Shown: positions 2,437 through 64,000 of the stretch, piece by piece
Numbering within the stretch: position 1 is the first letter of the stretch
How the letters are laid out: each line of letters starts with the position of its first letter
NCBI GenBank assembly: GCA_031308135.1
Contig: JAHLJT010004567.1
Coordinates: 37,894,389-37,958,388 of the forward strand
DNA: 64,000 bases
Direction: 5' to 3'
Origin: Acheta domesticus
Lineage: Eukaryota > Arthropoda > Insecta > Orthoptera > Gryllidae
The notes under the pieces: model-generated
Seen by the model: only the letters and a program-made list of their open reading frames with translations
Told to the model about the DNA's origin: nothing
Databases searched by the model: none
Made by a program: the position numbers and the translations under genes

Positions 2437-4640
2437 ATAGATAGATTTATTTAAACTGCAAATGGGTATAACCCGGTGGCAGCTAATTACAAAAACATAA
2501 AAATACATAGTCATTAAATAATAAATTACATTAAGAGAGAAAATAAAAAGAAAGAAAAAAAAAGAAAGAGAGAGAAGAAAAAAACAAACAAACAAACTTC
2601 TATACTCTAACTCCGCACTGAATGTTTATACAATCCGGATTACACTGCACTTCACTGCACTTCACTTCACTAAGACCTGAAAACATTTGCTTCTTCATTT
2701 CTCTGCTATACACTGCACGACACCTCACTTCACAATAGAACACTTATGCATCGCTATATAACTCACTATTCTCCCTCATTTACTTAATAATACCCTGAAT
2801 TAATTTCCTAAACTGTTGGACACTTTGAGGAAAGAGTTCAAAGGTTTTTGCAGGCAATCTATTCCATTCCGTAATCGTTCGATTTGTAAAAGAAAATTTC
2901 CCGACATTCGTTCTCTGCTGTCTTAAATTTATTTTGTGCCTGTGATCCACTCTACTGATGTATGTAGGAATACATAGCCGCCGATTAATTTCTTTCCAAG
3001 CTGGATGACCATTATAAGCTTTATACAAGGCGCAGAGTCTTGCTACTGATCGCCTGTTTTTGAGTGAATCCCACCCTGCCGTTTTCTTGTCCCTGAAAGT
3101 AAATTTAGCTGCCCTATGCTGAATCCTTTCCAAGTGTTTACACTGCATAATTTTGTGCGGATCCCAACAAATTGTTCCATATTCCATTATCGGACGAACA
3201 AGTGATAAATAAGCAATTTCCCTCGCGTTTGCGGTACTCTTTTTTAGGATGCGCATTACAAAGTGGAGAGATCTCCAGGCTTTTCCTACAACAAAATCTA
3301 CGTGTTTTTTCCAACTTAATTTACTATCGAAATGAATTCCTAGGTACTTGCACGAGGAAACTCTCGGAATAATGTCATTATTTAAACGATAATTTGTTTC
3401 ACTGTAATTACGACCTCTGCCAAAAGTGATGGATTTACTTTTAGAGCTATTTATGGACATTCCATTATTTTCCGCCCAGTAATATAACGCCTCAAGATCA
3501 CGTTGCAGAATTTCTTCATCTCTTTCCGAATTAATACTACGATATATTATGCAATCGTCTGCAAATAGCCGAACATTTGAGGTTAATTGCGCCGGCAGAT
3601 CATTGACGAAGGCTAGAAATAGAAGGGGTCCAATGACACTCCCCTGCGGTATTCCTGACGTAACGCTTGCCCCGGAAGATAACTCTTGCCCAATTCGGAC
3701 TTTCTGTTTTCTATCTCGCAGAAATTCGCTAATCCACGCCACCACCCTGGGATCTATGCCTGAATTCATTAATTTCTGTGCAAGCCGATCGTGTGGAACG
3801 ACATCAAACGCTTTGGCAAAATCTATAACTACTGCGTCTACTCTCCCGCCCGCGTCAATTTCATCCGCTAGATCCTGAAATAGCGTGACTACCTGACTTT
3901 CGCATGAGTAACCACTCCTGAACCCGTGTTGCCCATCGTAGAGCCATTTTTTAATTTCCCATTCTTTCTTAATGTAACTCCCAACTAGATGCTCCATAAG
4001 CTTGCAGACCACTGACGTAAGACTTACCGGCCTATAATTGCATAATTTGGTTTTGTCACCACTTTTAAAGATTGGTACGACAAAAGCTAATTTCCAATCT
4101 TCAGGTACTTTTGAATTATTCAAAGACACGTGAAAAATTCTAATAAGGTACGGTAATATTGCCTTTCCTCCTAGTTTAATTAAATCCGTAGAAATGTCGT
4201 CTGGACCCCTTGACTTACCATTTTTCATAGACTTTACTTTATTCCATAGAGCGTTTACTTCAATATTAAACTGATTCGCAACCGAAGACACTTGAATAAA
4301 TGGATGGTCCGTACTATTTTTGAAAACTGAACTGAAATACTTATTAAATGCATCCGCTTTTGTCCGATTGTCAGTAATTAGCGTGTTTCCATTTTCGCGA
4401 ATAACTGGGATATCCTCTTTATTTCCTTTCCTTCTACGAACATATTTATAAAAATCTGTCCAGTTATTTCCCTTTCCATCTAGGATACTTTTTAAATATG
4501 CCTCCTGAGCAATTTTCTTTTCGCGCTCCAATTCTTTTGAACGATTTCGAAAAATATTCATATGTTCGCTACTGCGTTTTCTGTTCTTAAATGCCTTTCT
4601 TGTTATCCTCTTCATTCTCCTAATTTTTGCACTGTAGTAT
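2437..4640 (-). mobile_element. 5'-truncated CR1/L2-like non-LTR retrotransposon
   Basis: On the minus strand, coding sequence starts abruptly at about 4640, next to a TA-rich tract. It runs through an uninterrupted RT and ends in about 340 bp of 3' UTR. The terminus AAATAAATCTATCTA is a short repeat tail, unlike the poly(A) of jockey elements, which favours the CR1/L2 side of the non-LTR tree. The endonuclease domain and any ORF1 are missing, the usual 5' truncation of LINE insertions. Clade assignment is by motif and tail style only. Confidence 0.75.
2780..4615 (-). CDS. Non-LTR retrotransposon reverse transcriptase (truncated polyprotein, ORF intact)
   Basis: This 611-residue open frame copies element RNA into DNA at a nicked target. 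The RT blocks are in order: NYRPVSLT (193-200), catalytic motif A DFAKAFD (265-271), GIPQGSVIGPLLF (321-333) and catalytic motif C FADD (351-354), then the thumb and the C-terminal RIQHRAAKF region (497-505). All three catalytic aspartates are present. The frame continues a few codons upstream of the Met to an in-frame TAA in TA-rich DNA, so the Met is not a native start but the first one after truncation. The N-terminal endonuclease is absent, so the copy cannot move by itself. The intact frame suggests a fairly recent insertion. It is a transposon product, not a host gene. Confidence 0.9.
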   Translation of the reverse strand: MKRITRKAFKNRKRSSEHMNIFRNRSKELEREKKIAQEAYLKSILDGKGNNWTDFYKYVRRRKGNKEDIPVIRENGNTLITDNRTKADAFNKYFSSVFKNSTDHPFIQVSSVANQFNIEVNALWNKVKSMKNGKSRGPDDISTDLIKLGGKAILPYLIRIFHVSLNNSKVPEDWKLAFVVPIFKSGDKTKLCNYRPVSLTSVVCKLMEHLVGSYIKKEWEIKKWLYDGQHGFRSGYSCESQVVTLFQDLADEIDAGGRVDAVVIDFAKAFDVVPHDRLAQKLMNSGIDPRVVAWISEFLRDRKQKVRIGQELSSGASVTSGIPQGSVIGPLLFLAFVNDLPAQLTSNVRLFADDCIIYRSINSERDEEILQRDLEALYYWAENNGMSINSSKSKSITFGRGRNYSETNYRLNNDIIPRVSSCKYLGIHFDSKLSWKKHVDFVVGKAWRSLHFVMRILKKSTANAREIAYLSLVRPIMEYGTICWDPHKIMQCKHLERIQHRAAKFTFRDKKTAGWDSLKNRRSVARLCALYKAYNGHPAWKEINRRLCIPTYISRVDHRHKINLRQQRTNVGKFSFTNRTITEWNRLPAKTFELFPQSVQQFRKLIQGIIK

Positions 4641-5312
4641 TCTTATATATAGTTAATATATATTATAGTAAATATATATATATATATATATTATAATAGT
4701 TTATAATAATACAGAATATTGCAATAAATTTGATGTAATAAATCAAATGTTAATGGTTGGCTCATCACAGCAGTACAGACACTGTGTTCCGAGATGAATG
4801 TCGCTGAAGTTAAACCAGTGGCGTCACGTCGTTAGGGAGGGGTAGGGGGGATGGCTGTCCGCCCCGGCTGACAGCATTTTAAGGGTGACACAAATTAGAA
4901 ACGACATAGATTTTGATAAAATTATAGATAAGTTTGCCGCCCTTAAATCCCGAAAAGTATTTTTATAAAAAGTATGCATTTGTGAATTAGTTACTCTTCG
5001 TTTTAGATTATTTAAAAAGTTATATTTCAACTGTTCTGAAACACATACAGTTTTTAATATATTATAAAAAATGTCACATGCAAATATACATGTATATTTA
5101 TTAAGTAATGTATAAACTATTCGGGATATAAGTAATGGATAAACTATTCGGGAATAATTAATTTATAGGGGGTGATACCATTAGTTTTGCCCCTGGTGAC
5201 ACCAAATGAAGCTAGGCTACTGAGTTGAACAGCGAGCACATGTAATTAGTGGGGATAAAACAACATTCTCATCTTTAATAATAGTTTTGTAATATTCTTT
5301 ATTTTTAAACGT
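4641..5312. other. AT-rich sequence with a short TA microsatellite
   Basis: A (TA)n tract lies at about 4673-4690. The rest shows no gene or recognised repeat. Confidence 0.5.
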
Positions 5313-6345: not shown

Positions 6346-6725
6346 AGCATTCCTTTTGCTTGTAGTGGTAAGAGTAGAACTGATGTTCGTTACTATTTTG
6401 TTAGCAATGCAGAAATATCAAATCAGCAGTTCATTTACCGATGAAATTGATTTTCTATAACTCGGAACAAATTTTTTTCTAATTTCTATTTTTCTGAAAT
6501 AAGTTTTCTAAATTCTGTTCTGTTTTTCAAGTGTTGCCAACGAGCTTAAATTTCTATCTCGTTGAGTGTTGCTAATTTCGCGCTTTTTAAATTCTGGGCC
6601 TCAAGAAAATGTGCGCAGATAATCTCTTCCCCCATACGTCATATACAGTTTTTACTATTTTCTTGACCAAATAAATAAGTAAATAATTCTGAATATTTGT
6701 TATATGTTGTTTAAATTGTTCGGCT
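6346..6725. other. No gene seen
   Basis: AT-rich sequence without recognisable features. Confidence 0.5.
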
Positions 6726-7154
6726 GATTTTAAGGACAGGGTTCGGCTCACTAAACCAACGGCGCACGGTTCACTTGCGCATGGTTCACTCGCGCGGACC
6801 ACGAGAACGAATCACTCAGGGAGCACTGCTTGCATTGTGCATTGTGCGGTGTGGTGCGAATGTGTAATGGAGAATTACAATGGTTAAATGCATAAAATGC
6901 GTTGCATGCATAATGTTAAATGCATAAATGCGTTGGTAATTATGCGTTGGACAGACTCAAGGATGTTTTATGTTAACGCGAGGGCCGAAGGCCCGAGCCT
7001 CGTCCTCAACTTGGACACGGGTAGCGAAGCGTCACGATTCCACACGAAAGTGCGTTGGCCACGTGGCCGTGTGCACACTGTGGCGGCGCCGCGAATGACT
7101 CGTTCGGAACCGAATCGTGCGCGTCAATAGGAGCCGAACCCTGTTCTTAAAATC
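6726..7154. mobile_element. MITE with 24-bp terminal inverted repeats
   Basis: A 429-bp segment bounded by GATTTTAAGGACAGGGTTCG (6726-6745, continuing GCTC) and its inverse ending at 7154, with one mismatch over 24 bp. The interior is GC-rich near both ends and has no transposase. A clear target duplication was not found. The CAGGG motif inside the TIR hints at a hAT relationship, which is a guess. Confidence 0.65.
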
Positions 7155-8751: not shown

Positions 8752-9028
8752 CATGGAGGAATATACAATATTCAGTATTATAACCTCCTTGATATTTTCC
8801 ATGGCGTGAAGATATTCCACTAATCAATCCAAAATTGCTATCGTTTGAAATATTGAAATCAATATTTCATTGTACCTTAATACGTAAAATAGAAGCTACA
8901 ACTTAAGACACGAAATATAATTCAGGACGGTAATATCGTTTTTAAAGTGTGTATCGATGAAGTAATAGACTGCACGATCAAGGTGAAATATCTTTGCAAC
9001 CTCTAAGTGGGGCAGGGTGTGCGCCGAT

Positions 9029-9038
9029 GTCATGTGAC
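9029..9038 (+). promoter_or_regulatory. M-box / CLEAR-type Mitf-TFEB site in the Ac45 promoter
   Basis: GTCATGTGAC is a perfect 10-bp palindrome. It contains the MITF M-box TCATGTGA and differs from the CLEAR consensus GTCACGTGAC by one base. It sits 24 bp upstream of the Ac45 ATG. Drosophila Mitf is known to regulate V-ATPase subunit genes through such sites. Actual binding here is inference. Confidence 0.6.
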
Positions 9039-9061
9039 AGAGCATATGATCGATTCTGCAG

Positions 9062-10300
9062 ATGGCAGCCAGCAAGTGCGTGACGATGAAGTCGTTTTTG
9101 TTGTTATTTGTGAGTGTAGTACTAGTTTTTGGAAATGAACATGTTCCTGTTCTTGTATGGGAAGCAAAAGGTGGTGTTAGTAGACAAATACCAAATTTAC
9201 CATCGCTATCGAAGTTAAGTAGCGAAGAATTCTCTGACTTTTTTATCAAGAAAGTGTCAGGAGAGGCAGGCCCTCAACCTCTTATTGCCGTCTTCGTTGA
9301 AGAAAATTTAAGCGTTGAAGACTTCAGCTGGCAAGATGCTGAAGGACACATTGGATTTCCGCACCTAGAAAATCTGACCAGCGCTGCTAAGCGGGTTGAA
9401 TTCTTTCCGTCTGTGCATGCCCCTTTAAAAGGTTTGAAACGTTTGGGATATCGTTGGCAAACATTGCAAGTAGAAGACCAGGAAAACGATTTATCTTTAC
9501 CATCTGAGGGAGGTGTCGTATTAATTGTAAAATTGGGAGATGCAAGAATCGATGAAGATAGACCCGAATTTTTGAAAAGGCACGATTATGTCATCAGTGA
9601 AATATACAATGATTTAATAGCAAAAAATAAAGAAGTTATTGCTTTGTACACTTCTCGTCACTCATCGTGGGTAGAGCCAGCATATGAGCCAATGGTACGA
9701 AGAGTGAGAAGTGCTCCTGTCCTTGATGAGAATGCTATTATTTGGAATGATACAGACATTATATTCTATACTTCAGTGACACCTCTATTTATACCTAACA
9801 CAAAAGAGCCTGCAAAATCTATAAACATCTCAAAACCTTTGTGTACGAGAGATGTACGCTCTGCCAGTAAATCACTAAAATGTAAATTTGATAACAATAA
9901 TTATCGCCTTGAATTTCGTTTTACAACAGTACAAGGATATTGGTATCTTAATATTTATATTACAGATATGAGTAGTAATTTTACATTGCTTTCTACAGAC
10001 ACTGAAATTTATGCTCCTGAAGGGTTTTCATATCACTGTAGCCAAGAAGTTACCTTTAAAAATGGCACAGTGTCATTGGTCCTAAAGAATTTTCAGATAC
10101 AGCCAGATGCCAAAGGTTTATTTGATGATGCTTATGATTGTGTTTGGTTCTTCACTGTTCCCATTTGGGCTGGTTTATTGGTTACCACTATCCTTGCCAT
10201 TATTCTTATGATGGGGCTTGCTGCGTTAATGGACATCAACACAATGGATCGTTTTGATGATCCAAAAGGAAAACCTATTACTATTAATGTATCTGAATAA
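9062..10300 (+). CDS. ATP6AP1: V-type proton ATPase accessory subunit S1 (Ac45)
   Basis: This 412-residue type I membrane protein helps assemble and traffic the V-ATPase, the proton pump of lysosomes, endosomes and secretory vesicles. Residues 9-24 form a hydrophobic signal peptide, followed by the mature-looking NEHVPVLVWE. RRVR at 213-216 is a furin-type site in the place where vertebrate Ac45 is processed. N-glycosylation sequons in the lumenal part are at about 82, 104, 229, 255, 306 and 334. Lumenal cysteines lie at 261, 274, 326 and 360. One membrane helix (about 361-389) precedes a short cytoplasmic tail of about 23 residues, the family hallmark. An in-frame TGA lies 15 bp upstream of the first ATG; Met9 has A at -3 and could be the real start. 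Length is between fly and human orthologues. The gene is a single uninterrupted exon, unusual for such a genome, so a retrocopy cannot be excluded, but the frame is intact and a promoter motif is present. Confidence 0.93.
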   Translation: MAASKCVTMKSFLLLFVSVVLVFGNEHVPVLVWEAKGGVSRQIPNLPSLSKLSSEEFSDFFIKKVSGEAGPQPLIAVFVEENLSVEDFSWQDAEGHIGFPHLENLTSAAKRVEFFPSVHAPLKGLKRLGYRWQTLQVEDQENDLSLPSEGGVVLIVKLGDARIDEDRPEFLKRHDYVISEIYNDLIAKNKEVIALYTSRHSSWVEPAYEPMVRRVRSAPVLDENAIIWNDTDIIFYTSVTPLFIPNTKEPAKSINISKPLCTRDVRSASKSLKCKFDNNNYRLEFRFTTVQGYWYLNIYITDMSSNFTLLSTDTEIYAPEGFSYHCSQEVTFKNGTVSLVLKNFQIQPDAKGLFDDAYDCVWFFTVPIWAGLLVTTILAIILMMGLAALMDINTMDRFDDPKGKPITINVSE

Positions 10301-15393: not shown

Positions 15394-16390
15394 TCCGCCT
15401 CCACAACGACCGAAATAGTACTAACAAAGAATCTCCCCCTCCAAGTCAGAGGAGTCAGTACTAAGTGAAGATTCTCGCCTCCAACAACGACGGAGTTATA
15501 CTAACAAAGAATCTCCACTCAAAGTCGGAGGAGTAGTACTAAGAAAGATTCTCCGCTCCACCAACGACGAAATAGTACTAACAAAGAATCCTCCACCTCC
15601 AAGTGAAGAGTAGTACTAAGAAGATTCTCCACCTCCAAGGTCGGAGGAGTAGTACTAGAGAAAGATTCTCCCGCTTACAGACGGAGTATACTAACGAAGA
15701 ATTCCAATCCAAGTCGGAGGAGTAGTACTAATAAAGATCTCCGCCTCAACAAGGACGGAGTAGTACTAACGAAGAAATCTCCACATCCAAGTCGGAGGAA
15801 GTAGTACTAAGAAAGATTCTCCGCCTCCACAAAGACGGAGTAGTACTAAAGAAGAATCTCCACATCCAAGTCGGAGGAGTAGTACTAAGAAAGAATCTCC
15901 GCTCCACAAAGACGGAGTAGTACTAAAGAAGAATCTCCACATCCAAGTCGGAGAGGAGTAGTACTAAAGAGATTCTCCGCCTCCACACGACGGAATAGTA
16001 CTAACGAAGAATCTCCCACCTCCGAGTCGGAGAGGAGTAGTACTAAGAAAACATTCTCCGCTTATACAACGACGGAGTAGTACTAAAGAAGAATCTCCAC
16101 ATCCAAGCGGAGGAGTAGTACTAAGAAAGATTCTCCGCCTCCACAACGACGGAGTACTTCTAAACAAAGAGATATCTTCCCCTCCAAGTCGGAGTAGTAC
16201 TAACAATGAAACTCCACCTCCAGAACGAAGGGGTACTACTAACACAAAAATCTCAGCCATCACGTCACAGAGTGGTAAGTAACGAAGAATCGCCCCCTCA
16301 AGTCGGAGAAGTAGTTCTAAGAATGAAACTCCGCCTCCACAAAGAAGGGTAGTACTGACAAAGAATATTCGCCTCCGAAACGGAGGCGTA
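15394..16390. repeat. Bipartite minisatellite, unit about 78 bp
   Basis: About 13 noisy copies of a unit made of two related halves of about 39 bp. One half carries AGATTCTCCGCCTCCACAAC and GACGGAGTAGTACTAA, the other GAATCTCCACCTCCAAGTC and GGAGGAGTAGTACTAA. Copies differ mostly by 1-2-base indels. The array continues into the gap. The minus-strand open frame rich in Leu/Ser/Gly is a by-product. Confidence 0.9.
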
Positions 16391-21934: not shown

Positions 21935-24900
21935 TCATTGCTTCTTGTTGTATACACTATTCCATTTATATTTCGTCAGAATGTTTGTGTGTGTTTGCAG
22001 AATTCTATATTTTTTTTGGTATGTAGGGGAGTCAAGGATTGAATCGAAGTTCGTTCCTTGCAGATGTTTTTGTTCTTTCTTGTGAGAATTAGGGCATTCG
22101 ACAATTAGGTGTGTATGGTGTTTGGGATGCTGCAGATAGGGCAGATGGGGAGAGTATTCTTAGTTAACAGGTGAAGGTGGCTTAGTTTACAGTGGCCTGT
22201 TCTTATTCTTGATATGATGACTTGCTCTCTCCTGCTTAATTTGCTATTGAGTTTAAGGTTGTTGACATGCTCGATTTTCTTGTGAAGGATACTGGCTTTT
22301 GATCTCTCCATATTTTGACCCATTTTCAAAGAGATATTTGTTAATAATATATGTTCTTAAAATCGTCAATTGTGTTGGTTATGGTCAATACACTGTTTGA
22401 GTCTCCAACTGCCCTATCATTGTCGGGGCATATACTGTTGTCATCTATGTTTGTCTTCCGTTTGGATCGTTTCTATGTGATGGATTTCCCTGATTTGGTG
22501 ATGTTGTAGTATAATTCTTGTATGTTAATGGCCATTTCAGTTTTGAGATTTCTTTAGATATAGTGTGTATGATACCGGAGATTTAGAAATTATAAATGGC
22601 TGCGGTTTGTTTGGTTAGCCAGTTTGAATGCTAACATTAGTGAGCACATATCTGCAGTGATCTTACTGCAGAAAGAGTGAAGTTGATGTTTAATTTTGGG
22701 TTCCTGCGTAGAGATAACTGAATAGGTTTCATTTTCATTTTTTATTCCGTAGGCACATATTCGGAGAGGGTTTGTAATGTTCCATGGTGGGTTCAGCAGG
22801 TTGTAGATCCGGGCTTTTGTTGTTTATGTTTGGATCTTCGACAGAAGTTGAAGCGATTTGGTTAGTATTTCTGGTATTGTCCACGGAGGAATATGTGTAT
22901 TCTCCTGTCTTCTGTTGGTGTTATCTGGAAGCAGAGTTCTTGCGTAAGTGTTTTAATTTTTGCATAAAGGGGAATGTATCTTGAGTTTTCTTTGTATTCA
23001 GCTTGATCACTGGATAAACACGTGAAGTATTATTAGAGTTGATTGAAGCAGCAGCATTGATGGCATATTTCAACATTAATGTATTTCTGCGATGTGATAG
23101 ATTTGGTTCGTTGGATTCAATTAGGATGCTTCCGATGGGGCTTGTGCGGTAGCAAACCGGTACTGATTTCTTAGGCCTTGGTTGTGTATAACGTCTAGTT
23201 TCTTGAGGTTTTCCATCGGCAGAATCATAAATTACAGAGGGAGATAGATTTACCTTTGAGAAAACGGTGATGTCATTTGCATATTTCTTGTAAACACAGG
23301 AGCTTCGATATTTGCGTCTACATCGTTAATTGCAAGAAGAAAGAGTGTGACGCTCAATACGGATCCTTTGGGAACTCCGTTTTCTATCTTCATTTCTTCA
23401 GAGAGGCAGCCGTTGATTCTCACTTGTATGGTCCTGTCTTTCATAAGACTTTTGATAAATTGAAACATATTTCTTCCGAGTTCCAATCTGCTGTAATTTT
23501 CTTAGAATTCCGTGTATCCACACCATGTCCTAAGCTTTTCAATGTCCAAGTTGATGGCTAGAACATGCTGGTTGTTTGAGAATGCTTCTTGTATATGCGT
23601 GTGTATGCATTATCAGGTGAGCTAAGGTTGAGTGGTTTGATCTGAAGCCAAATTGGTTATTGGATACAATTTTTGAAAGTCGAGGCAAACCACCTGAGTC
23701 GTGAGTTAATTATTTTTTCAAAAATTTTGCACATGTTGCACGTTAATGCGATAGGTCTGTAATTTTCATTTTGATCTGTCCTTGCCAGGTTTGGGTATTG
23801 GAACTACTATTGCAGTTTTCCGTACTTTAGGAAATATGTTCTTAGTCCAGATTAAGTTAGTATATATTTTCAGAAGAGTTCAATTCCATCTGTGGGTAAT
23901 TATTTAAGAGTATATTGGGGATCCATCGGGGCCTGGCGATGAATTTTTGGTACTGGTCAATAGTTGAGGTGAGTTCCTTTAGGGAGATGGGGTTGTTTAA
24001 ATGATATTGAGAACCGGTGTCTGATTGCTGTTAAATGTAATCTCTTCTTTTTCTTCTTCTGCTTTAAACTGAAGAAAATCAGCAGTATAATTTTGAGAGC
24101 TGGAATTTTTTGTAAATTTATCGGCCAATATGTTTGCGATGCAGTAAGGCTCTGTAAGTCATTTTGTTGTCATTCTGTAGGAATGGAATTGAATTGTACA
24201 ATTTGCTACCTTTTATGGCATTAATCTTATTCCAGGAGTCCTTTGATGTTGTTTGATGCTGAAATAGATGATACAAAGACAGTCCAAGATTTAGCTTTGC
24301 TGTCTTTGATGATCCTTCTCGCCTTCCGCTCTCATTTTTTGGTACTCAATCTTGTTTTCTAAGGTGTTGTGTTTTTCGTACTTGTTAAAAGCTCTTTTGG
24401 ATCTTTTTATTGCGTCACTGCATTCGTCGTTCCACCAGGGAACTGATCTTGTCTTATTTGTAGGCCTGATGTATTTAATGGATTCATGTGTAGCTATTGT
24501 TATGACATTTGAGAAGGACTGAATGATACGTCGATATCGTCGTTTTCTTCAAATATATTCTTGCTGATTAAGATCTTGCTGATACATTTCTTGTATTGTT
24601 TCCAATTTGCTTTGTCGTAATTCCATTTGAGAGATCCTGCAAAGCTGTTAGGAATACTGTGGGGACAGTCCACATACAGGAGTATTGGGAAGTGATCACT
24701 GTCATGTAGCTGTTCGAGAACACCCCAGTTTCATTTTGGGGCAATTGCAGTGGAACATAAGGTAAGGGTCTATTGCACTAAGATGTCCGTTGCTCATGTT
24801 AAATGAGTGGGTTTGTCCGTTATTCAAGATAATTAGGTCCTCTTCATCAATAATATTTTCCATGTGACGTCCTCTTGTGTCGGATTTGTTTGATTTCCAT

Positions 24901-25314
24901 ATTGTGTTTATGGCTGTTGAAGTCACCAAGTAGGATAAAAGGTTTTGGAAGTTGTTTAATCAAATCTTTAATTTCATTAGCATCGAGAGAGTGGCTATTG
25001 GGAAGGTAAATATTACATACACTGATTGTCGATGGGGCTTGGATTTTAATAGCTACAGCTTCAATCTCTGTTTGTATGTCAATTTGTTCTACAGGCAAGT
25101 ATTCTTTTGCAAAAATGGCAACACCACCGCTAGCTATATTGGAGTAGTGACGGTTTTTGTTGTAGCATTTGAAACCTTTTAATTTACCTTTGCTGTTTGC
25201 CTTGAAGTTAGTTTCCTGAATGCAGATTATTTCGGGCTTGTGATTTTGGCATAGTAATTGTAGCCTTTCATATCTTGTGTAGAAACCATTTGCATTCCAT
25301 TGTAGAATGTTCAT
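21935..25314 (-). pseudogene. Jockey-type ORF2: endonuclease - reverse transcriptase - zinc-finger C-terminus (broken)
   Basis: ORF2 starts MNILQWNANG at 25314 and would be about 1,126 codons. The apurinic-type endonuclease is readable down to about 24850 (IICIQETNFK, GGVAIFA, LLGDFNSH). The RT follows: SSPGPDGIP near 23930, NQFGFRSNHST near 23660, GVPKGSVLS near 23365 and the catalytic box near 23280. The C-terminal segment near 22105-22329 has the SRIRTGHCKLSHLHL motif and CPICS cysteines typical of jockey elements. Defects are a TAG in motif A (23530-23532), YAND instead of YADD at the catalytic box (23272-23283), and several frameshifts. It ends at TGA 21935-21937. Upstream frames at 24702-24929 and 23250-23486 are fragments of it. 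Confidence 0.85.
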
Positions 25315-25594
25315 TTTAGCTTTGAGAAGGGTTAGGTTCAGATATTTCTGTTGTGGTTGCTACATTTTGTAGCGGCACCACAACATTCTCTTCATTATCT
25401 TGTTGGTAAGTCTTTTTGGATTCTTGCTGACAAATATTGGCCGAGTCAAATTTGTTGTATAATGGTTGTGGATACTCAGTCGACAATGGTGTCCAGTGGA
25501 TTCCTTAGAAGTGTCTTCATTTGTTTGAATTTTCATTTAATAATGGGCAGGTTGGTGTTTATCATGAGGTTTTGTATTAAAAAAGAATTCACTG

Positions 25595-26822
25595 TCAGAT
25601 TGTTTCCATGCTAGATTCTGAGTCGGATGTATCTGATTCTGGTATGTGTTTTAACAGCTTTTTCTTTAGTCTGGTGACTCTGCCTTTGATAACTCTGTCA
25701 TTTAGTACAGAGTGGATGTCGTTGAGCATTTTTATGACAGCTGGATGTCATTGGAATAATCTTTGACAAAGGTAAGAGGTCAGCAGAGCCCAAAGCATGT
25801 TCAAGTAGTAAATGGAGTTGATTTTCTGACAGTGGAAAAGAGTTTTTGTTCTTTTCGAACAGAGCTTTAGTTGGACTGAGCATGTCCTCAAGAGTAGTGC
25901 CAGGGTTACTGTCTTGTTCCGTTTCATCTTGTTTTGCAGAATTCTTTTCTGTTTCTTTTTTTTGTCTTTTCACATTGTTGTCTTCATTGTGGCTGTCATT
26001 AGCATTGTTGTTTGTTTCAGAGGGGGAGGAGGATTCATTTGGGAGGCTTCTCTTAAGAAGGGGAGGAAAATTTATAGGGTCACTGGTTGGGGAGGCAGTG
26101 GGTGATTCAACTGTGATAGGTTGTACTTCAATGTTATTTATGGGGTTTGAAGATATATTTGTACTTGTAGAATCCAGAAGGCAATTCTCTTTGTGGTGAG
26201 TTTGGGGGCAGTTACTGGCAGTATGGCCTTCCATTTTGCAATTGAACAGGTGATGTTTTCAGCAGAGAAAAAAGATTCTATATGGAGTACTTTCATATAC
26301 AATCACTGATGACTGAGGGAATTTGTGAAGTTCTTCAGGTTGGATAAAAGTTTGCCTTCTGAAGCTCATAATGTGACTGAGATTGGGGTCAGACAGACCA
26401 GCTCTGATGAAAGATATACTAGAGGCAGTTTTAATGTCATGGTTCTTAAAAATATTTGTGATTTCCTCGTTGGAATGAATGGGTATACATTTGATATTAT
26501 GATTCTTTTGAGTTTGTTAATTAGGGGTCACACATTAACAGTTGTATTTTTAATGATCAGAGTAGGGTATTTGTTTGTTATAAGATCAGCATTGGTCTTG
26601 GAATTCAGAAACACACATATTCTATTATTGGATATTCTTGATATAAAAGTAATGGCACTGGGGGGAACAATTTCGGTTAGTTTACTTATATAGTCTTTGA
26701 CAGTTAGAATTTTCGCATGCGTCCAGTAGTATAGATTGTTCTTTTGATGGAAAACTCACAGTATTGGCGGCTCCGGCGTACGACTTCGTGGGTTGCTCTT
26801 GGAGGTTAGGTGACGGATTCAT
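25595..26822 (-). pseudogene. Jockey-type ORF1, Gag-like CCHC zinc-knuckle protein (broken)
   Basis: ORF1 starts MNPSPNLQ at 26822 and ends at TCA/TGA 25595, about 400 codons. Its N-terminal half is fragmented. The nucleic-acid-binding zinc knuckle CFNCKMEGHTASNC (CX2CX4HX4C) lies near 26235-26275, as in jockey ORF1 proteins that coat element RNA. A Ser/Thr/Pro- and Asn-rich linker follows, with a basic VKRQKKE stretch and a C-terminal conserved-looking tail that ends SSMETI. The 25698-26234 frame covers the knuckle and linker intact; the rest needs frameshift repair. It overlaps nothing and is separated from ORF2 by about 280 bp. Confidence 0.8.
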
Positions 26823-32808: not shown

Positions 32809-32817
32809 GCGTCGTGG
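32809..32817 (+). repeat. 9-bp target duplication, left copy
   Basis: GCGTCGTGG, identical to 37200-37208, brackets the foldback element. Confidence 0.85.
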
Positions 32818-34020
32818 AGGTGCGTGAAGTTGGCACCCCCACTTTGTCGAAAATTCAAATCACATACGCCAAAGTTTTGCCCAAGTTTTGCCCAAGTTTG
32901 CCCAACCTTTAAAAAGTTTTGCCCAAGTCAAATAAAGCCGCAAATCGCAAATCAAAATTTCGGACTTAAACGTCCTGGAGCACTCCCACAAAGCTATTTC
33001 CAACTTTCGAACATGCCATCGGTTTGCCCACGATGAGACCAAGTACATCGAGTCATAAAACAGTTTTGCCCAAGCCACACAACGCCGGAAATAGCGAAAA
33101 TCGCAAATCAAATTTTCGACTTTAAAGTGACTAGCACCCCCACTTGCGAATTTCAAAGTTTTGAACAAACCATCGTGTAGAAGAGTTTTGCCCATTTTTG
33201 AATCAATTTGTAAAAAGTTTTGCCCAAGTCAAACAAAGTCGTAAATTGCAAATCAAAATTTCGGACTTAACACTCCTGAAGCTCCCCCACAAGGCAATTT
33301 CGAAATTACGAACACATCACAGTTTTGCTGACGACGAACCCAAGCAAATCGAGCCATAAAAAAGTTTTGCCCAACTCACAAAAAGTCGGAAATCGCAAAT
33401 AAAATTTTCGGACTTAAACTTCCTAGAGCTCTCCCAAAAACAAATTTCAAAATTTCGAACATACCATGGTATCGCTCACGATTGATTCAAAGTCATGGAG
33501 CCTTCAATAAGATTTGCCCAAGTCACACCACGCCAAAAATCGCGAAAATAGCAAATCATATTTTGGACTTTAAAGCGACTAGCACCCCAATTGCGAATAT
33601 CAAAGGGGTGAAGGTACCATCGTGTAGAAGAGTTTTGTACATTTACGAATCAATTTGTAAAAAGTTTTGCCCAAGTCACAGAACGCGAGAAATCGCAAAT
33701 CAAGATTTTGGACTTAAACCCACGTAGCTTTCCCACAACTGTTTTTCGAAATTTTGAACATACCACCGGTTTGCCCATCATGAGCCCATCTTCATCGAGC
33801 CATAAACAAGTTTTGCCCAAGTCACAGAAAGTCAGGAATCGCAAATCAAAATTTCGGACTAAAACCTCCTATAGGTCTCCCAAACAGAAAATTCAAAATT
33901 TCGAACATGTCATCGTTTTGCCCACGATCGGCCCAAGTCCATCGAGCCTTAAAAAAGTTTTGCCCAAGTCACACAACGCCAGAAATCGAAAATCAAATTT
34001 TGGACTTTAAAGTGACTAGC

Positions 34021-34990
34021 ACCCCCACTTTGTCGAAAATTAAAATGACATACGCCAAAGTTTTGCCCACGTTTTGCCCAGGTTTGCCCAACCTTTAAAA
34101 AGTTTTGCCCAAGTCACACAACGCCGGAAATCGAAAATCAAATTTTGGACTTTAAAGCGACCAACACCCCCACTTGCGATTTTCAAGGTTTTGAACATAC
34201 CATGCTGTAGAAGAGTTTAGCCCATTTTTAAATCAATTTGTAAAAAGTTTTGCCCAAGTCAAATAAAACCGCAAATCGCAAATCAAAATTTCGGTCTAAA
34301 ACCTCCTGTACGTCTCCCAAACTAAAATTTCAAAATTTCGAACATGTCATCGTTTTGCCCACGATCGGCCCAAGTCCATCGAGCCTTAAAAAAGTTTTGC
34401 CCAAATCACACAACGCCAGAAATCGAAAATCAAATTTTGGACTTTAAAGTGACTAGCACCCCCACTTTGTCGAAAATTAAAATGACATACGCCAAAGTTT
34501 TGCCCAAAATTTGCCCAGGTTTGCCCAACCTTTAAAAAGTTTTGCCCAAATCACACAACGCCGGAAATCGAAAATCAAATTTTGGACTTTAAAGCGACCA
34601 ACACCCCCACTTGCGATTTTCAGGTTTTTGAACATACCATCCTGTAGAAGAGTTTACCCCATTTTTAAATCAATTTGTAAAAAGTTTTGCCCAAGTCAAA
34701 TAAAACCGCAAATCGCAAATCACAATTTCCGTCTAAAACCTCCTGTAGGTCTCCCAAACAAAAATTTCAAAACTTCGAACATGTCATCGTTTTGTCCATG
34801 ATCAGCCCAAGTTCATCGAGCCTTAAAAAAGTTTTGCCCAAATCACACAACGCCGGAAATCCAAAATCAATGTTGGACTTTAAGTTGACTAGCACCCCCA
34901 CATTGTCGAAAATGCAAATGACGTACGCCAAAGTTTTGCTCATGTTTTGCCCAAGTTTGCCCAACCTTTAAAAAGTTTTGCTCAAGTCAA
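34021..34990 (+). repeat. 437-bp tandem repeats inside the foldback element
   Basis: The landmark ACCCCCACTTTGTCGAAAAT recurs at 34021, 34459 and (one change) 34894, giving a period of about 437 bp. The same landmark also opens the element near 32838, so the array is built from the terminal sequence. This expansion is present only on the left side of the loop. Confidence 0.85.
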
Positions 34991-34999
34991 ATAAAGCCG

Positions 35000-35890
35000 C
35001 AAATCGCAAATCAAAATTTTTGACTTAAACTTTCTGTAGCTCTCCCACAAGTGTTTTTCGAAATTTGGGACGTAGCATCGTTTTGCCCACGATGAAACAA
35101 AGTTTATTGAGCTAGAAAAACTATTTGCCCAAGTCACAAAAGCCGGAAATCGGAAATCAAACTTTCAGTATCTAACTTCCTTTAGCTTTGCCCCAATAAT
35201 TTCGAAATTTTGAACACACCATCTTTTAACCAAATCTTGCCGAAATTTACCCAATTTTAAAGGAACATATCTTATTAAGCGGAAACTTCATGTTGATTGT
35301 TGTTTTGAAAAATGAAAAAAAATGTATTTGCAGGACGACGCAAAAAATTATGTACTCTATTATAGGAGAAATTTTAAACAGAAAATTTGGAATTATTTTT
35401 CAAGATAAGTTGATATGTCGCGGCTTCATTGACAGTACAACGATTACTCAAAATATCCATTGGATATCAGAGACTCCCGAATTCCGTGACTAACAATTTT
35501 GGAGAAAACCATCTGATCGGTTTAGGTGCTAGCGTACTACACAGACGTACTACATATATATGGACGGACTGACCGACGGATGGACAGACGGACCACTAGA
35601 TGGTGCAATAGACGGTCCGACGGACGGAAAGATGGATGGTCGGGCAGATGGACGGGTAGACAGCGGACGCGTACGGAATGTTTTCGCGATATTGGTTTTT
35701 TGGTATCAAGGAACAACAAAATATGGATTCTGACATAACAAGTTGTAGCCAGTAAATTACTATAATTAAAAACAAGATTCATCCATTTTTTCAATACCAG
35801 GACCCCGCCAGTAATTAATAATAAAATAAGAAATAAATTGATAATAAAATATTTGTAATCATTTCCATCGTTTTTCGTTTACTTTCTTGC
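35000..35890. other. Unique loop of the foldback element with GACGGA repeat
   Basis: Non-repeated AT-rich centre with no transposase motif. About 35565-35680 is an imperfect GACGGA/GATGGA minisatellite. Confidence 0.6.
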
Positions 35891-37199
35891 ACATTTTCGA
35901 TTTCCGGCGTTGTGTGACTTGGGCAAAACTTTTTAAAGGTTGGGCAAACCTGGGCAAAACTTGGGCAAAACTTAGGCGTATGTCATTTTATTTTCGACAG
36001 AGTGGGGGTGCTAGTCACTTTAAAGTCCAAAACTTGATTTCGATTTCCGGCGTTGTGTGACTTGGGCAAAACTTTTTTAAGGCTCGATGGACTTGGGCCG
36101 ATCGTGGCAAAACGATGACAAGTTCGAAATTTTGAATTTTCTGTTTGGGAGACCTATAGGAGGTTTTAGTCCGAAATTTTGATTTGCGATTCCTGACTTT
36201 CTGTGACTTGGGCAAAACTTGTTTATGGCTCGATGAAGATGGGCTCATGATGGGCAAACCGGTGGTATGTTCAAAATTTCGAAAAACAGTTGTGGGAAAG
36301 CTACGTGGGTTTAAGTCCAAAATCTTGATTTGCGATTTCTCGCGTTCTGTGACTTGGGCAAAACTTTTTACAAATTGATTCGTAAATGTACAAAACTCTT
36401 CTACACGATGGTACCTTCACCCCTTTGATATTCGCAATTGGGGTGCTAGTCGCTTTAAAGTCCAAAATATGATTTGCTATTTTCGCGATTTTTGGCGTGG
36501 TGTGACTTGGGCAAATCTTATTGAAGGCTCCATGACTTTGAATCAATCGTGAGCGATACCATGGTATGTTCGAAATTTTGAAATTTGTTTTTGGGAGAGC
36601 TCTAGGAAGTTTAAGTCCGAAAATTTTATTTGCGATTTCCGACTTTTTGTGAGTTGGGCAAAACTTTTTTATGGCTCGATTTGCTTGGGTTCGTCGTCAG
36701 CAAAACTGTGATGTGTTCGTAATTTCGAAATTGCCTTGTGGGGGAGCTTCAGGAGTGTTAAGTCCGAAATTTTGATTTGCAATTTACGACTTTGTTTGAC
36801 TTGGGCAAAACTTTTTACAAATTGATTCAAAAATGGGCAAAACTCTTCTACACGATGGTTTGTTCAAAACTTTGAAATTCGCAAGTGGGGGTGCTAGTCA
36901 CTTTAAAGTCGAAAATTTGATTTGCGATTTTCGCTATTTCCGGCGTTGTGTGGCTTGGGCAAAACTGTTTTATGACTCGATGTACTTGGTCTCATCGTGG
37001 GCAAACCGATGGCATGTTCGAAAGTTGGAAATAGCTTTGTGGGAGTGCTCCAGGACGTTTAAGTCCGAAATTTTGATTTGCGATTTGCGGCTTTATTTGA
37101 CTTGGGCAAACCTTTTTAAAGGTTGGGCAAACTTGGGCAAAACTTTGGCGTATGTCATTTTAATTTTCGACAAAGTGGGGGTGCCAACTTCACGCACCT

Positions 37200-37430
37200 G
37201 CGTCGTGGAGTGTCGTTGCCTCGGCGTGACGTATCGGGAGACACGGTCTGCTGACTCCTGGCCGACTCCTGGCTGACCTGTTGTCCACCGGGTTATAAAC
37301 CCCGGTGGGCCAATGAGAAATGAGTTCTTGGCTACGAGTCAGTGCGCAGCGAGTTCGTGCTGCGCCCTCTTGATGGAGTTTAGAGGTTTGCTGGCGCGCG
37401 CCGTTTGAATGGTCGGCGAGTACACAGCAA
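37200..37430. repeat. GC-rich host repeat, distal segment, with TATA-loop hairpin
   Basis: It begins with the right copy of the 9-bp duplication (37200-37208). CCACCGGG (37285-37292) pairs with CCCGGTGG around a loop holding TTATAAA; CCAAT follows. The layout could be a core promoter of a retroelement LTR, but the class is unproven. Confidence 0.4.
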
Positions 37431-59791: not shown

Positions 59792-60963
59792 ATGAATCCG
59801 TCACCTAACCTCCAGAGTAACCCACGAAGTCGTACGCCGGAGCCGCCAATACTGTGAGTTTTCCATCAAAAGAACAATCTGTACTACTGGACGCATGCGC
59901 AAATCTAACTGTCAAGGACTATATAAGTAAACTCACCCAGGGGAAATTGTTCCCCCAGTGCCATTACTTTTATATCAAGAATATCCAATAATAGAATATG
60001 TGTGTTTCTGAATTCCAGGACCAATGCTGATCTTATAACAAACAAATACCCTACTCTGGTCAATAAAAATACAACTGTTATGTGAGACACCTAATTAACA
60101 AACTCAAAAAAATCATAATATCAAATGTATACCCATTCATTCCAAACGAGGAAATCACAAAATATTTTTAAGAACCATGACATTAAAACTGCCTCCAGTA
60201 TATCTTTCATCAGAGCTGGTCTGTCTGACCCGTAATCTCAGTCACATTATGAGCTTCAGAAGGCAAACTTTTATCCAACTGAAGAACTTCACAACTCCCT
60301 AAGTCATCAGTGATTGTATATGAAGATACTCCATATAGAATCTTTTCTCTGCTGAAAACATCACCTGTTTCAATTGCAAAATGGAAGGCCATACTGCTAG
60401 CAACTGCCCCCAAAATCACCACAAAGAGAATTGCCTTCTGGATTCTACAAGTACAAATATATCTTCAACCCCACAAGTAACATTGAAGTACAACCTATCA
60501 CAGTTGATTCACCACACTGCCCCCCCAACCAGTGACCCTATAAATTTCCCCCCCTTTCTTAAGAGAAGCCTCCCAAATGAATCCTCCTCTCCCTCTGAAA
60601 CAAACAACAATGCTAATGACAAGCCACAATGAAGACAACAATGTGAAGACAAAAAAAGAATTCTGCAAAACAAGATGAAACGGAACAAGCCAGTAACCCT
60701 GGTACTACTCTTGAGGGCATGCTCAGTCCAACTAAAGCTCTGTTCGAAAAGAACAAAAACTCTTGGGCTCTGCTGACCCTCTTACCATTGTCAAAGATTA
60801 TTCCAATGACATCCCAGCTGTCATAAAAATGCTCAACGACATCCACTCTGTACTAAATGACAGAGTTATCAAAGGCAGAGTCACCAGACTAAAGAAAAAG
60901 CTGTTAAAACACATACCACAATTAGATACATCCGACTCAGAATCTAGCATGGAAACAATCTGA
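59792..60963 (+). pseudogene. Jockey-type ORF1 (right copy, broken)
   Basis: It starts MNPSPNLQ and ends SSMETI with TGA at 60961-60963. The CCHC knuckle CFNCKMEGHTASNC is intact near 60366-60410. Frameshifts in the linker split it into frames 60381-60632 and 60763-60963. The C-terminal piece (IVKDYSNDIPAVIKMLND, DRVIKGRVTRLKKKLL) is clearer than in the left copy. Confidence 0.8.
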
Positions 60964-61239
60964 CACTGAATTCTTTTAATACAAACCTCATGATAAACAC
61001 CAACCTGCCGTTATTAAATAAATTCAAACAAACGAAGACACTTCTAAGGAATACCACTGGATACCATTGTTGACCTGAGTATCCACAACCATTATACAAC
61101 AAATTTGACTCGGCCAATATTTGTCAGCAAGATTCCAAAAAGACTTATCACAAAATAATGAAGAGAATGTTGTGGTGCCGACTACAAAATGTAGCCACCA
61201 CAACAGAAATATCTGAACCTAACCCTTCTCAAAACTAAA

Positions 61240-64000
61240 ATGAACATTCTACAATGGAATGCAAATGGTTTCTATACAAGATATGAAAAGGCTATAATTA
61301 CTATGCCAAAATCACAAGCCCGAAATAATCTGCATTCAGGAAACTAACTTCAAGGCAAACAGCAAAGGTAAATTAAAAGGTTTCAAATGCTACAACAAAA
61401 ACCGTCACTACTCCAATATAGCTAGCGTTGGTGTTGCCATTTTTGCAAGAGAATACTTGCCTGTAGAAACAAATTGACCTACAAACAGAGATTGAAGCTG
61501 AGCTATTAAAATCCAATCCCCAGCGACAATCAGTGTATGTAATATTTACCTTCCCAATAGCCACTCTCTCGATGCTAATGAAATTAAAGATCTGATTAAA
61601 CAACTTCCAAAACCTTTTATCCTACTTGGTGACTTCAACAGCCATAACACAATATGGGAATCAAACAAATCCGACACAAGAGGACGTCACATGGAAAATA
61701 TTATTGATGAAGAGGACCTAATTATCTTGAATAACGGACAACCCACTCATTTAACATGAGCAACGGACATCTTAGTGCAATAGACCTTACCTTATGTTCC
61801 ACTGCAATTGCCCCAAAATGAAACTGGGGTGTTCTCGAACAGCTACATGACAGTGATCACTTCCCAATACTCCTGTATGTGGACTGTCCCCACAGTATTC
61901 CTAACAGCTTTGCAGGATCTCTCAAATGGAATTACGACAAAGCAAATTGGAAACAATACAAGAAATGTATCAGCAAGCTCTTAAATCAGCAAGATATATT
62001 TGAAGAAAACGACGATATCGACCGTATCATTCAGTCCTTCTCAAATGTCATAACAATAGCTACACATGAATCCATTAAATACATCAGGCCTACAAATAAG
62101 ACAAGATCAGTTCCCTGGTGGAACGACGAATGCAGTGACGCAATAAAAAGATCCAAAAGAGCTTTTAACAAGTACGAAAAACACAACACCTTAGAAAACA
62201 AGATTGAGTACCAAAAAATGAGAGCGAAGGCGAGAAGGATCATCAAAGAAAGCAAAGCTAAATCTTGGACTGTCTTTGTATCATCTATTTCAGCATCAAA
62301 CAACATCAAAGACTCCTGGAATAAGATTAATGCCATAAAAGGTAGCAAATTGTACAATTCAATTCCATTCCTACAGAATGACAACAAATGATTACAGAGC
62401 CTTACTGCATCGCAAACATATTGGCCGATAAATTTACAAAAAATTCCAGCTCTCAAAATTATACTGCTGATTTTCTTCAGTTTAAAGCAGAAGAAGAAAA
62501 AGAAGAGATTACATTTAACAGCAATCAAGACACCGGTTCTCAATATCATTTAAACAACCCCATCTCCCTAAAGGAACTCACCTCAACTATTGACAGTACC
62601 AAAAATTCATCGCCAGGCCCCGATGGAATCCCCAATATACTCTTAAATAATTACCCACAGAGGGAATTGAAACTCTTCTGAAAATATATAACTTAATCTG
62701 GACTAAGAACATATTTCCTAAAGTACGGAAAACTGCAATAGTAGTTCCAATACCCAAACCTGGCAAGGACAGATCAAAAAGTGAAAATTACAGACCTATC
62801 GCATTAACGTGCAACATGTGCAAAATTTTTGAAAAAATAATTAACTCACGACTCAGGTGGTTTCTCGACTTTCAAAAAATTGTATCCAATAACCAATTTG
62901 GCTTCAGATCAAACCACTCAACCTTAGCTCACCTGATAAGCATACACACGCATATACAAGAAGCATTCTCAAACAACCAGCATGTTCTAGCCATCAACTT
63001 GGACATTGAGAAAGCTTAGGACATGGTGTGGATACACGGAATTCTAAGAAAATTACAGCAGATTGGAATCGAAGGAAATATGTTTCAATTTATCAAAAGT
63101 CTTATGAAAGACAGGACCATACAAGTGAGAATCAACGGCTGCCTCTCTGAAGAAATGAAGATAGAAAACGGAGTTCCCCAAAGGATCCGTATTGAGCGTC
63201 ACACTCTTTCTTCTTGCAATTAACGATGTAGACGCAAATATCGAAGCTCCTGTGTTTACAAGAAAATATGCAAATGACATCACCGTTTTCTGCAAAGGTA
63301 AATCTATCTCCTCTGTAATTTATGATTCTGCCCGATGGAACAACCTCAAGAAACTAGACGTTATACACAACCAAGGCCTAAGAATCAGTACCGGTTGCTA
63401 CCGCACAAGCCCCATCGGAAGCATCCTAATTGAATCCAACGAACCAAATCTATCACATCGCAGAAATACATTAATGTTGAAATATGCCATCAATGCTGCT
63501 GCTTCAATCAACTCTATAATACTTCACGATGTTTATCCAGTGATTCAAGCTGAATACAAAGAAAACTCAAGATACATTCCCCTTTATGCAAAAATTAAAA
63601 CACTTACGCAAGAACTCTGCTTCCAGATAACACCAACAGAAAAGACAAGAATACACAATATTCCTCCGTGGACAATACCAGAAATACTAACCAAATCGGC
63701 TTCAACTTCTGTCGAAGATCCAAACATAACAACAAAAGCCCGGGATCTACAACCTGCTGAACCCACCAGTGGAAATTACAACCCTCTCCGAATATGTGCC
63801 TACGGAATAAAAAATGAAAATGAAACCTATTCAGTTATCTCTACGCAGGAAACCAAAATTAAACATCAACTTCACTCTTTCTGCAGTAAGATCACTGCAG
63901 ATATGTGCTCACTAATGTTAGCATTCAAACTGGCTAACCAAACAAACCGCAGCCAATTTATAATTTACATAAAATCTCCCGGTATCATACACACTATATC
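61240..64000 (+). pseudogene. Jockey-type ORF2 (right copy, broken, 3'-incomplete in window)
   Basis: It starts MNILQWNANG. Endonuclease remains lie at 61240-61700 (LLGDFNSHNT near 61625). The linker frame at 61879-62391 (NKTRSVPWWNDECSDAIKRS) is intact. RT blocks follow: NSSPGPDGIPN (about 62610), NQFGFRSNHSTLAHL (62893), NLDIEKA then TAG at 63017-63019, GVPQ with a 1-base frameshift at 63178, and YAND at 63267-63278. It continues beyond the end. Confidence 0.85.

Follow-up and report, generated by a model that had tools for sequence, protein, structure and literature searches.

The FB-NOF elements of Drosophila have arms built of internal repeats, and their long copies carry the NOF gene; the units of FB arms are short. 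Here we describe a foldback element of Acheta domesticus that occupies positions 32818-37199 (4,382 bp) of a 64,000-nt stretch of contig JAHLJT010004567.1 (assembly GCA_031308135.1, positions 37,894,389 to 37,958,388 of the forward strand), referred to below as the window. Unlike FB, the family to which it belongs has arm units of ~145-147 bp, left arms of up to 6 kb and elements of 23 kb. We consider it highly probable that the window element belongs to the Foldback (MULE-NOF) kind of cut-and-paste DNA transposons, as a non-autonomous copy moved by a NOF-type transposase of its longer relatives.

Drosophila FB and FB4, which carry the class label MULE-NOF, have long inverted arms, 9-10-bp duplications and non-autonomous copies (PMC8277862), a combination of FB, FB4 and FB-NOF that recurs in the Acheta family. 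Tm1 of Meloidogyne (Mutator/Foldback, Phantom subclass) has composite arms of variable repeat number and 8-10-bp, mostly 9-bp, duplications (PMC3169594); it resembles the Acheta family in these respects and in having both transposase-coding and non-autonomous forms, but its arm units are ~14 bp long and its 496-aa Phantom transposase (FLYWCH plus MULE domain) is not of the NOF type with a USP domain. Tetris of Drosophila virilis is likewise a non-autonomous foldback with tandem arm units (~220 bp) and 8-10-bp duplications (PMC4079207); its autonomous partner was reportedly not found, whereas the Acheta family has a candidate. Rehavkus agrees in its 9-bp duplication, but has a terminal inverted repeat of 26-400 bp, a PHD finger and a minisatellite before the 3' repeat (PMC6446971), whereas the Acheta arms exceed 1.3 kb and both contain repeats.

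The window element and its flanks comprise the following features.
32809-32817, forward strand: left target-site duplication GCGTCGTGG, 9 bp (flank comparison; paralogous element-free stretches)
32818-32837, forward strand: left tip AGGTGCGTGAAGTTGGCACC, common to the family (129 exact genome copies, against 0 for a reversed control)
32818-34138, forward strand: left terminal inverted arm, 98.3% alignable to the right arm (arm alignment)
34139-35222, forward strand: extra arm-type units on the left side only, the 437-bp expansion (repeat analysis)
35223-35892, forward strand: unique core of 670 bp, no coding capacity seen, matching the leftmost internal sequence of longer copies
35893-37199, reverse strand: right terminal inverted arm, whose last 20 bp (37180-37199) are the inverted tip (arm alignment, tip search)
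37200-37208, forward strand: right target-site duplication GCGTCGTGG, 9 bp (flank comparison)

The duplication GCGTCGTGG is perfect on both sides, and the chance of a 9-bp flank match at fixed positions is ~4e-6 for one element. AGGTGCGTGAAGTTGGCACC is read inward from either end. The arms (32818-34138 vs 35893-37199) are 98.26% identical over 1,321 columns, with 1,044 nt at 100% complementarity, and are composed of ~145-147-bp units around AAAAGTTTTGCCCAAGTCA; there are also larger spacings of 301, 437 and 446 bp, and higher-order periods of 437-448 bp. The left side holds ~1.1 kb more units than the right, continuing to ~35222. A preliminary description of this locus had proposed a foldback structure with inverted arms built of subrepeats, a perfect 9-bp target duplication and a 437-bp expansion on one side only, all of which were borne out. 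Long inverted arms of direct subrepeats, varying in length between copies, place the element with Foldback / MULE-NOF. The statement that no transposase is visible holds for the window copy, in which stop-to-stop open reading frames (ORFs) of at least 120 aa reach at most 133 aa and all lie within the arms; it does not hold for the family, in which a NOF-type gene is present in members of 21-23 kb. Neither Rfam nor tRNA scanning of the window gave a match.

The 2.33-Gb assembly was searched for relatives. The left arm matched at least 174 places (40 of 286 candidates scored), and the exact 20-bp tip was found 62 times on the plus strand and 67 times on the minus strand, the reversed pattern on neither. 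Of the 129 tip places, 100 were listed; among them are 28 pairs (56 tips) that converge at a distance of under 30 kb. All 28 pairs, together with five elements already fetched (L012, L013, L016, L026 and L028), made up 33 tip-bounded elements of 2,209 to 26,350 bp. Their 9-bp duplications are exact in 25, have one mismatch in three and three mismatches in one; L009 has a duplication of 7 bp only, and none was found in 3 of the 33 (C5460:85617275, L012, whose right tip is altered, and L020E). Wrong pairings of flanks gave two or fewer mismatches in 120 of 63,848 cases, including swaps between two copies with common flanks (C1707:64540527 and 64602847, both among the 25 exact), which are probably one insertion duplicated later. 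A mostly 9-bp duplication is characteristic of the Mutator superfamily (MULE/IS256) and of Foldback / MULE-NOF (9-10 bp), and the tips, arms and duplications of the window element are as in most of the 32 other elements examined. The likeness to Drosophila FB and Mutator-like elements noted in the preliminary description is supported.

As a query for element-free versions of the insertion site, the two window flanks were fused so that the 9-mer was present once (joint at query 200/201). At least 42 places matched (40 of 739 candidates scored), and besides the window four loci match across the joint without an element. C6147:198719503 (query 154-243, 87%) and C1707:100127049 (query 154-239, 81%) are each followed shortly after by query 242-400 at 92%, and C5460:155112983 (query 157-400, 77%) and C5460:51280352 (query 154-400, 75%) align with ~50 extra bases. 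We infer that all four hold a single 9-mer. The window element sits in repetitive DNA, since its left flank (query 1 to ~160) is part of a separate dispersed repeat.

These data bear on whether the locus is a transposon at all, or an inverted satellite-like duplication or assembly artefact. The arms are indeed tandem-repeat arrays, and one member of 26.35 kb lacks a duplication and forms a giant inverted repeat; against this stand the identical tips, the exact 9-bp duplications in 25 of 33 elements, the element-free paralogous stretches and the spread over many scaffolds, and we give this explanation almost no credence. That the window element itself is an assembly artefact is unlikely, as the structure is seen on numerous scaffolds, where flanks and duplications differ, and element-free paralogues exist.

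The cores of family copies are colinear, each with different deletions. A 23,053-bp member at C1707:83303273-83326325, with the duplication GAATAGTAG at both sides, contains the whole core of L009 (6054-9040), then a new stretch, then the core of L013 and L020 (13502-19103). The window core corresponds to the left edge of the core of L013, and the latter core matches the 23-kb copy (L022E) from 6052; the window copy would therefore be without ~12 kb relative to the 23-kb copy, and the direct continuation of its core into the right arm appears to mark an internal deletion. On the minus strand, the new stretch carries two ORFs, one of 288 aa and one of 320 aa that lies beside a gap of 100 N. When the 320-aa ORF was searched against the genome at the protein level, 51 matches came up; the second-ranking one, 98% identical, lies inside a 21,224-bp element (L028, C3525:76294745-76315968), whose fetched piece has an open frame of 558 aa, with a 183-aa ORF upstream. 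A NOF-type gene between family tips, as in Foldback / MULE-NOF, is present in these two elements (21 kb and 23 kb). The label derives from a match to 'kda protein in nof-fb transposable element' of Lasius niger (29% identity, E 1.5e-50); no record named Drosophila NOF was among the protein-search matches, most of which are unnamed. Of the longer copies whose left internal edge the window core matches, one (the 23-kb copy) has the gene. The NOF-type gene of such longer sisters probably moves the window element.

A different mover would be a canonical MULE (PF10551) transposase of the genome; the NOF-type gene would then be a passenger that a few long copies have captured. The genome has 63 PF10551 matches, several with intact frames, and 9-bp duplications are typical of MULEs (PMC6446971, PMC3169594). 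However, by coordinates none of the 63 falls inside the 33 tested elements (28 pairs from 100 of the 129 tips, plus the five further elements), and canonical MULEs were set aside for this reason. At 20 MULE loci fetched with ~1.5 kb per side, a span that distant tips could escape, the nearest tip-like sequence is 5 edits away, and the matches shown to family members hit core repeats, not arms. Moreover, modelling of the NOF-type protein itself points to a DDE enzyme, and the gene lies in two tip-bounded elements. We regard a canonical MULE as an improbable mover.

By structure modelling, the favoured NOF-type protein resembles IS256/MULE-like DDE enzymes and has a predicted C-terminal USP-fold domain. 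At the sequence level, the NOF-type ORFs drew weak or irrelevant matches only from Pfam and PDB, and no PHD finger was matched in the ORFs of 558 aa and 183 aa (the gene is incompletely defined in its N-terminal part). The NOF-type profile aligns in register with MULE and scores better than shuffles do. In the 288-aa ORF, which represents the second domain, Peptidase_C98 is matched below threshold (E 0.011), and P0016, a relative with both parts in one frame, matches UCH above the cut-off (E 1.2e-8), a type of match absent in seven other relatives scanned. The model of this domain (pLDDT 86, pTM 0.85) matches USP-fold, ubiquitin/SUMO-protease-like structures both in Foldseek (Ubp8 1.5e-10, USPL1 1.9e-10) and by VIA (USP30 18.5, USPL1 17.4, CYLD 17.1), and the predicted assignment is accompanied by a Cys-box Cys in 11 of 11 rows, a His-box His in 7 of 8 rows with the full box, and two CxxC pairs, each in 10 of 11 rows.

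Several observations weigh against this account of the family and its enzyme. Among the 100 listed tips, 44 lack an exact partner facing them within 30 kb, and 5 of the 33 elements show no clear duplication. The 23-kb copy has the 100-N gap and a frame change between its two domains, the 21-kb copy changes frame inside the USP domain, and none of the copies seen has a gene that is complete and uninterrupted. The link to NOF is the name given to the ant protein by its source. No Pfam transposase profile matches the NOF-type protein (558-aa and 183-aa ORFs), and the hhalign probability with MULE is only ~54%. Finally, the top Foldseek match is the P-element transposase, with ISCth4 second, and all TM-scores over the whole model are ~0.2-0.25. 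This last match would suit a Galileo-like foldback of the P-element superfamily. Target duplications in that superfamily are 7-8 bp, compared with 9 bp here; by VIA, ISCth4 (14.2) scores above the P transposase, the MULE profile alignment is as described above, and no THAP domain was matched in the Pfam scan of the NOF-type ORFs. We judge a P-superfamily origin very unlikely.

Under the NOF-type reading, longer relatives would make the two-domain transposase, which would bind the tips, and possibly many sites along the repeated arms, excise the element and insert it with a 9-bp stagger; an internal deletion would have taken the gene out of the window copy. The USP domain might, as a conjecture, remove ubiquitin or SUMO from transposase, chromatin or repair proteins. 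A wider proposal, to which we give somewhat less than even odds, is that the missing transposase of Foldback elements is NOF: a DDE enzyme of IS256/MULE type that in insects, including the Acheta domesticus genome, is fused to a USP-fold SUMO/ubiquitin protease that would be brought to the site of excision or insertion, with the repeated arms serving as transposase-binding arrays.

Transposon-encoded ubiquitin-like proteases have been described in Ginger1 (OTU/Ulp1), Ulp1-bearing MULEs and the KIU/Kaonashi Vandals (PMC2836005, PMC13317346), and one Peptidase C19 fusion to another transposase type is reported from Trichomonas (PMC2836005). Ginger1, the Ulp1-bearing MULEs and the Vandals are similar in that the transposon encodes a ubiquitin/SUMO cysteine protease, in Ginger1 at the transposase C-terminus; they differ in having OTU or Ulp1 domains rather than a USP fold after a NOF-type transposase. 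The predicted USP fold would join Ulp1 and OTU among transposons apparently acting on ubiquitin or SUMO. In the open-licence literature, a search that says little, we recognised no paper on a NOF/USP or MULE/USP fusion. Foldbacks with 9-bp duplications, their Mutator link (as in Tm1 and Tetris) and the label MULE-NOF are already published (PMC8277862, PMC3169594, PMC4079207, PMC12694884). The suggestion of an undescribed class is accordingly not supported: because all this, and protease-bearing transposons, are on record, the Acheta family is a new family of a known kind. Its long members offer a candidate for a Foldback transposase, which for FB4 is still called unknown in a 2021 account (PMC8277862). 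Satellites can be seeded by foldback elements, which have also been linked to rearrangements; long copies in which a NOF-type gene lies between the same tips and 9-bp duplications make a direct mobilisation test possible.

The near identity of the arms had been ascribed to recent activity or arm-to-arm gene conversion, and both found support. For the family, L020 (C1707) and L021 (C6096) are 99.94% alike over 9,589 columns (4 mismatches) from the exact tip to the end of the piece fetched, with different flanks. Over the first 1,000 bp of the arms of nine elements, within-element difference averages 0.71%, compared with 1.44% for shuffled pairing, and 0 of 20,000 shuffles reach the observed likeness; L026 (29% difference) was omitted beforehand, and L015 was omitted because its left-arm stretch did not start at the true tip (47 of 940 differences). 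Private substitutions common to both arms occur in eight of the nine (window 5, L009 2, L010x 5, L012 6, L013 3, L014 2, L016 3, L018 1), and L017 has none. The outermost ~145-bp unit is missing from both arms in the window element and from the left arm only in L014. Such substitutions and losses are the expected trace of unequal exchange followed by arm-to-arm conversion. Unequal exchange of 145-147-bp units would lengthen or shorten the arms, and conversion, which has this statistical support, would keep them alike; arm identity therefore gives no date for an insertion.

Other copies showed further peculiarities. The 26.35-kb C1707:60850722-60877071 (L020/L030/L032/L053) is a giant inverted repeat between two family tips without a 9-bp duplication; its arms are ~11 kb, 96.7% alike over 8.6 kb, and its left 9.6 kb is the sequence that recurs on C6096. 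As L020E it was considered as an autonomous element and rejected, being such a repeat with no transposase-like ORF of at least 110 aa; three of six frames of its 7-kb part L032 were scanned with Pfam. The 5.1-kb core of L013, the longest early copy, was likewise rejected as coding: six-frame Pfam gave only a PT disordered repeat (E 0.0025, below the cut-off) and no ORF exceeds 114 aa. This core contains ~311-bp direct repeats, ~73% alike (element ~6475-7100), and similar sequence lies beside unrelated MULE ORFs in L044 and L049. A 13.4-kb copy (L010/L011) has a 1.24-kb core insertion (element ~8795-10033) that none of the other compared cores has. The NOF-type ORF also has diverged relatives, 28-39% identical and open over 1,054-1,092 aa, at C392:61484102-61484938, C3525:40579440 and C4002:41706, which are possibly other families of the same kind; the C392 frame is 1,092 aa long and 39% identical to the 320-aa ORF.

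Elsewhere in the window, a 620-aa reverse transcriptase ORF at 2780-4642 (PF00078, E 6.3e-32) probably belongs to a non-LTR element, and a 416-aa open frame at 9050-10300 matches the V-ATPase accessory subunit Ac45 (PF20520, PF05827). One repeat is present in two inverted copies (~22594-25744 and 60814-63958), 98-100% alike over several segments, one of which holds an ORF (24847-25359) that is endonuclease-like by eye. A minisatellite with 39- and 77-79-bp units lies at 15394-16366, beside a run of N.
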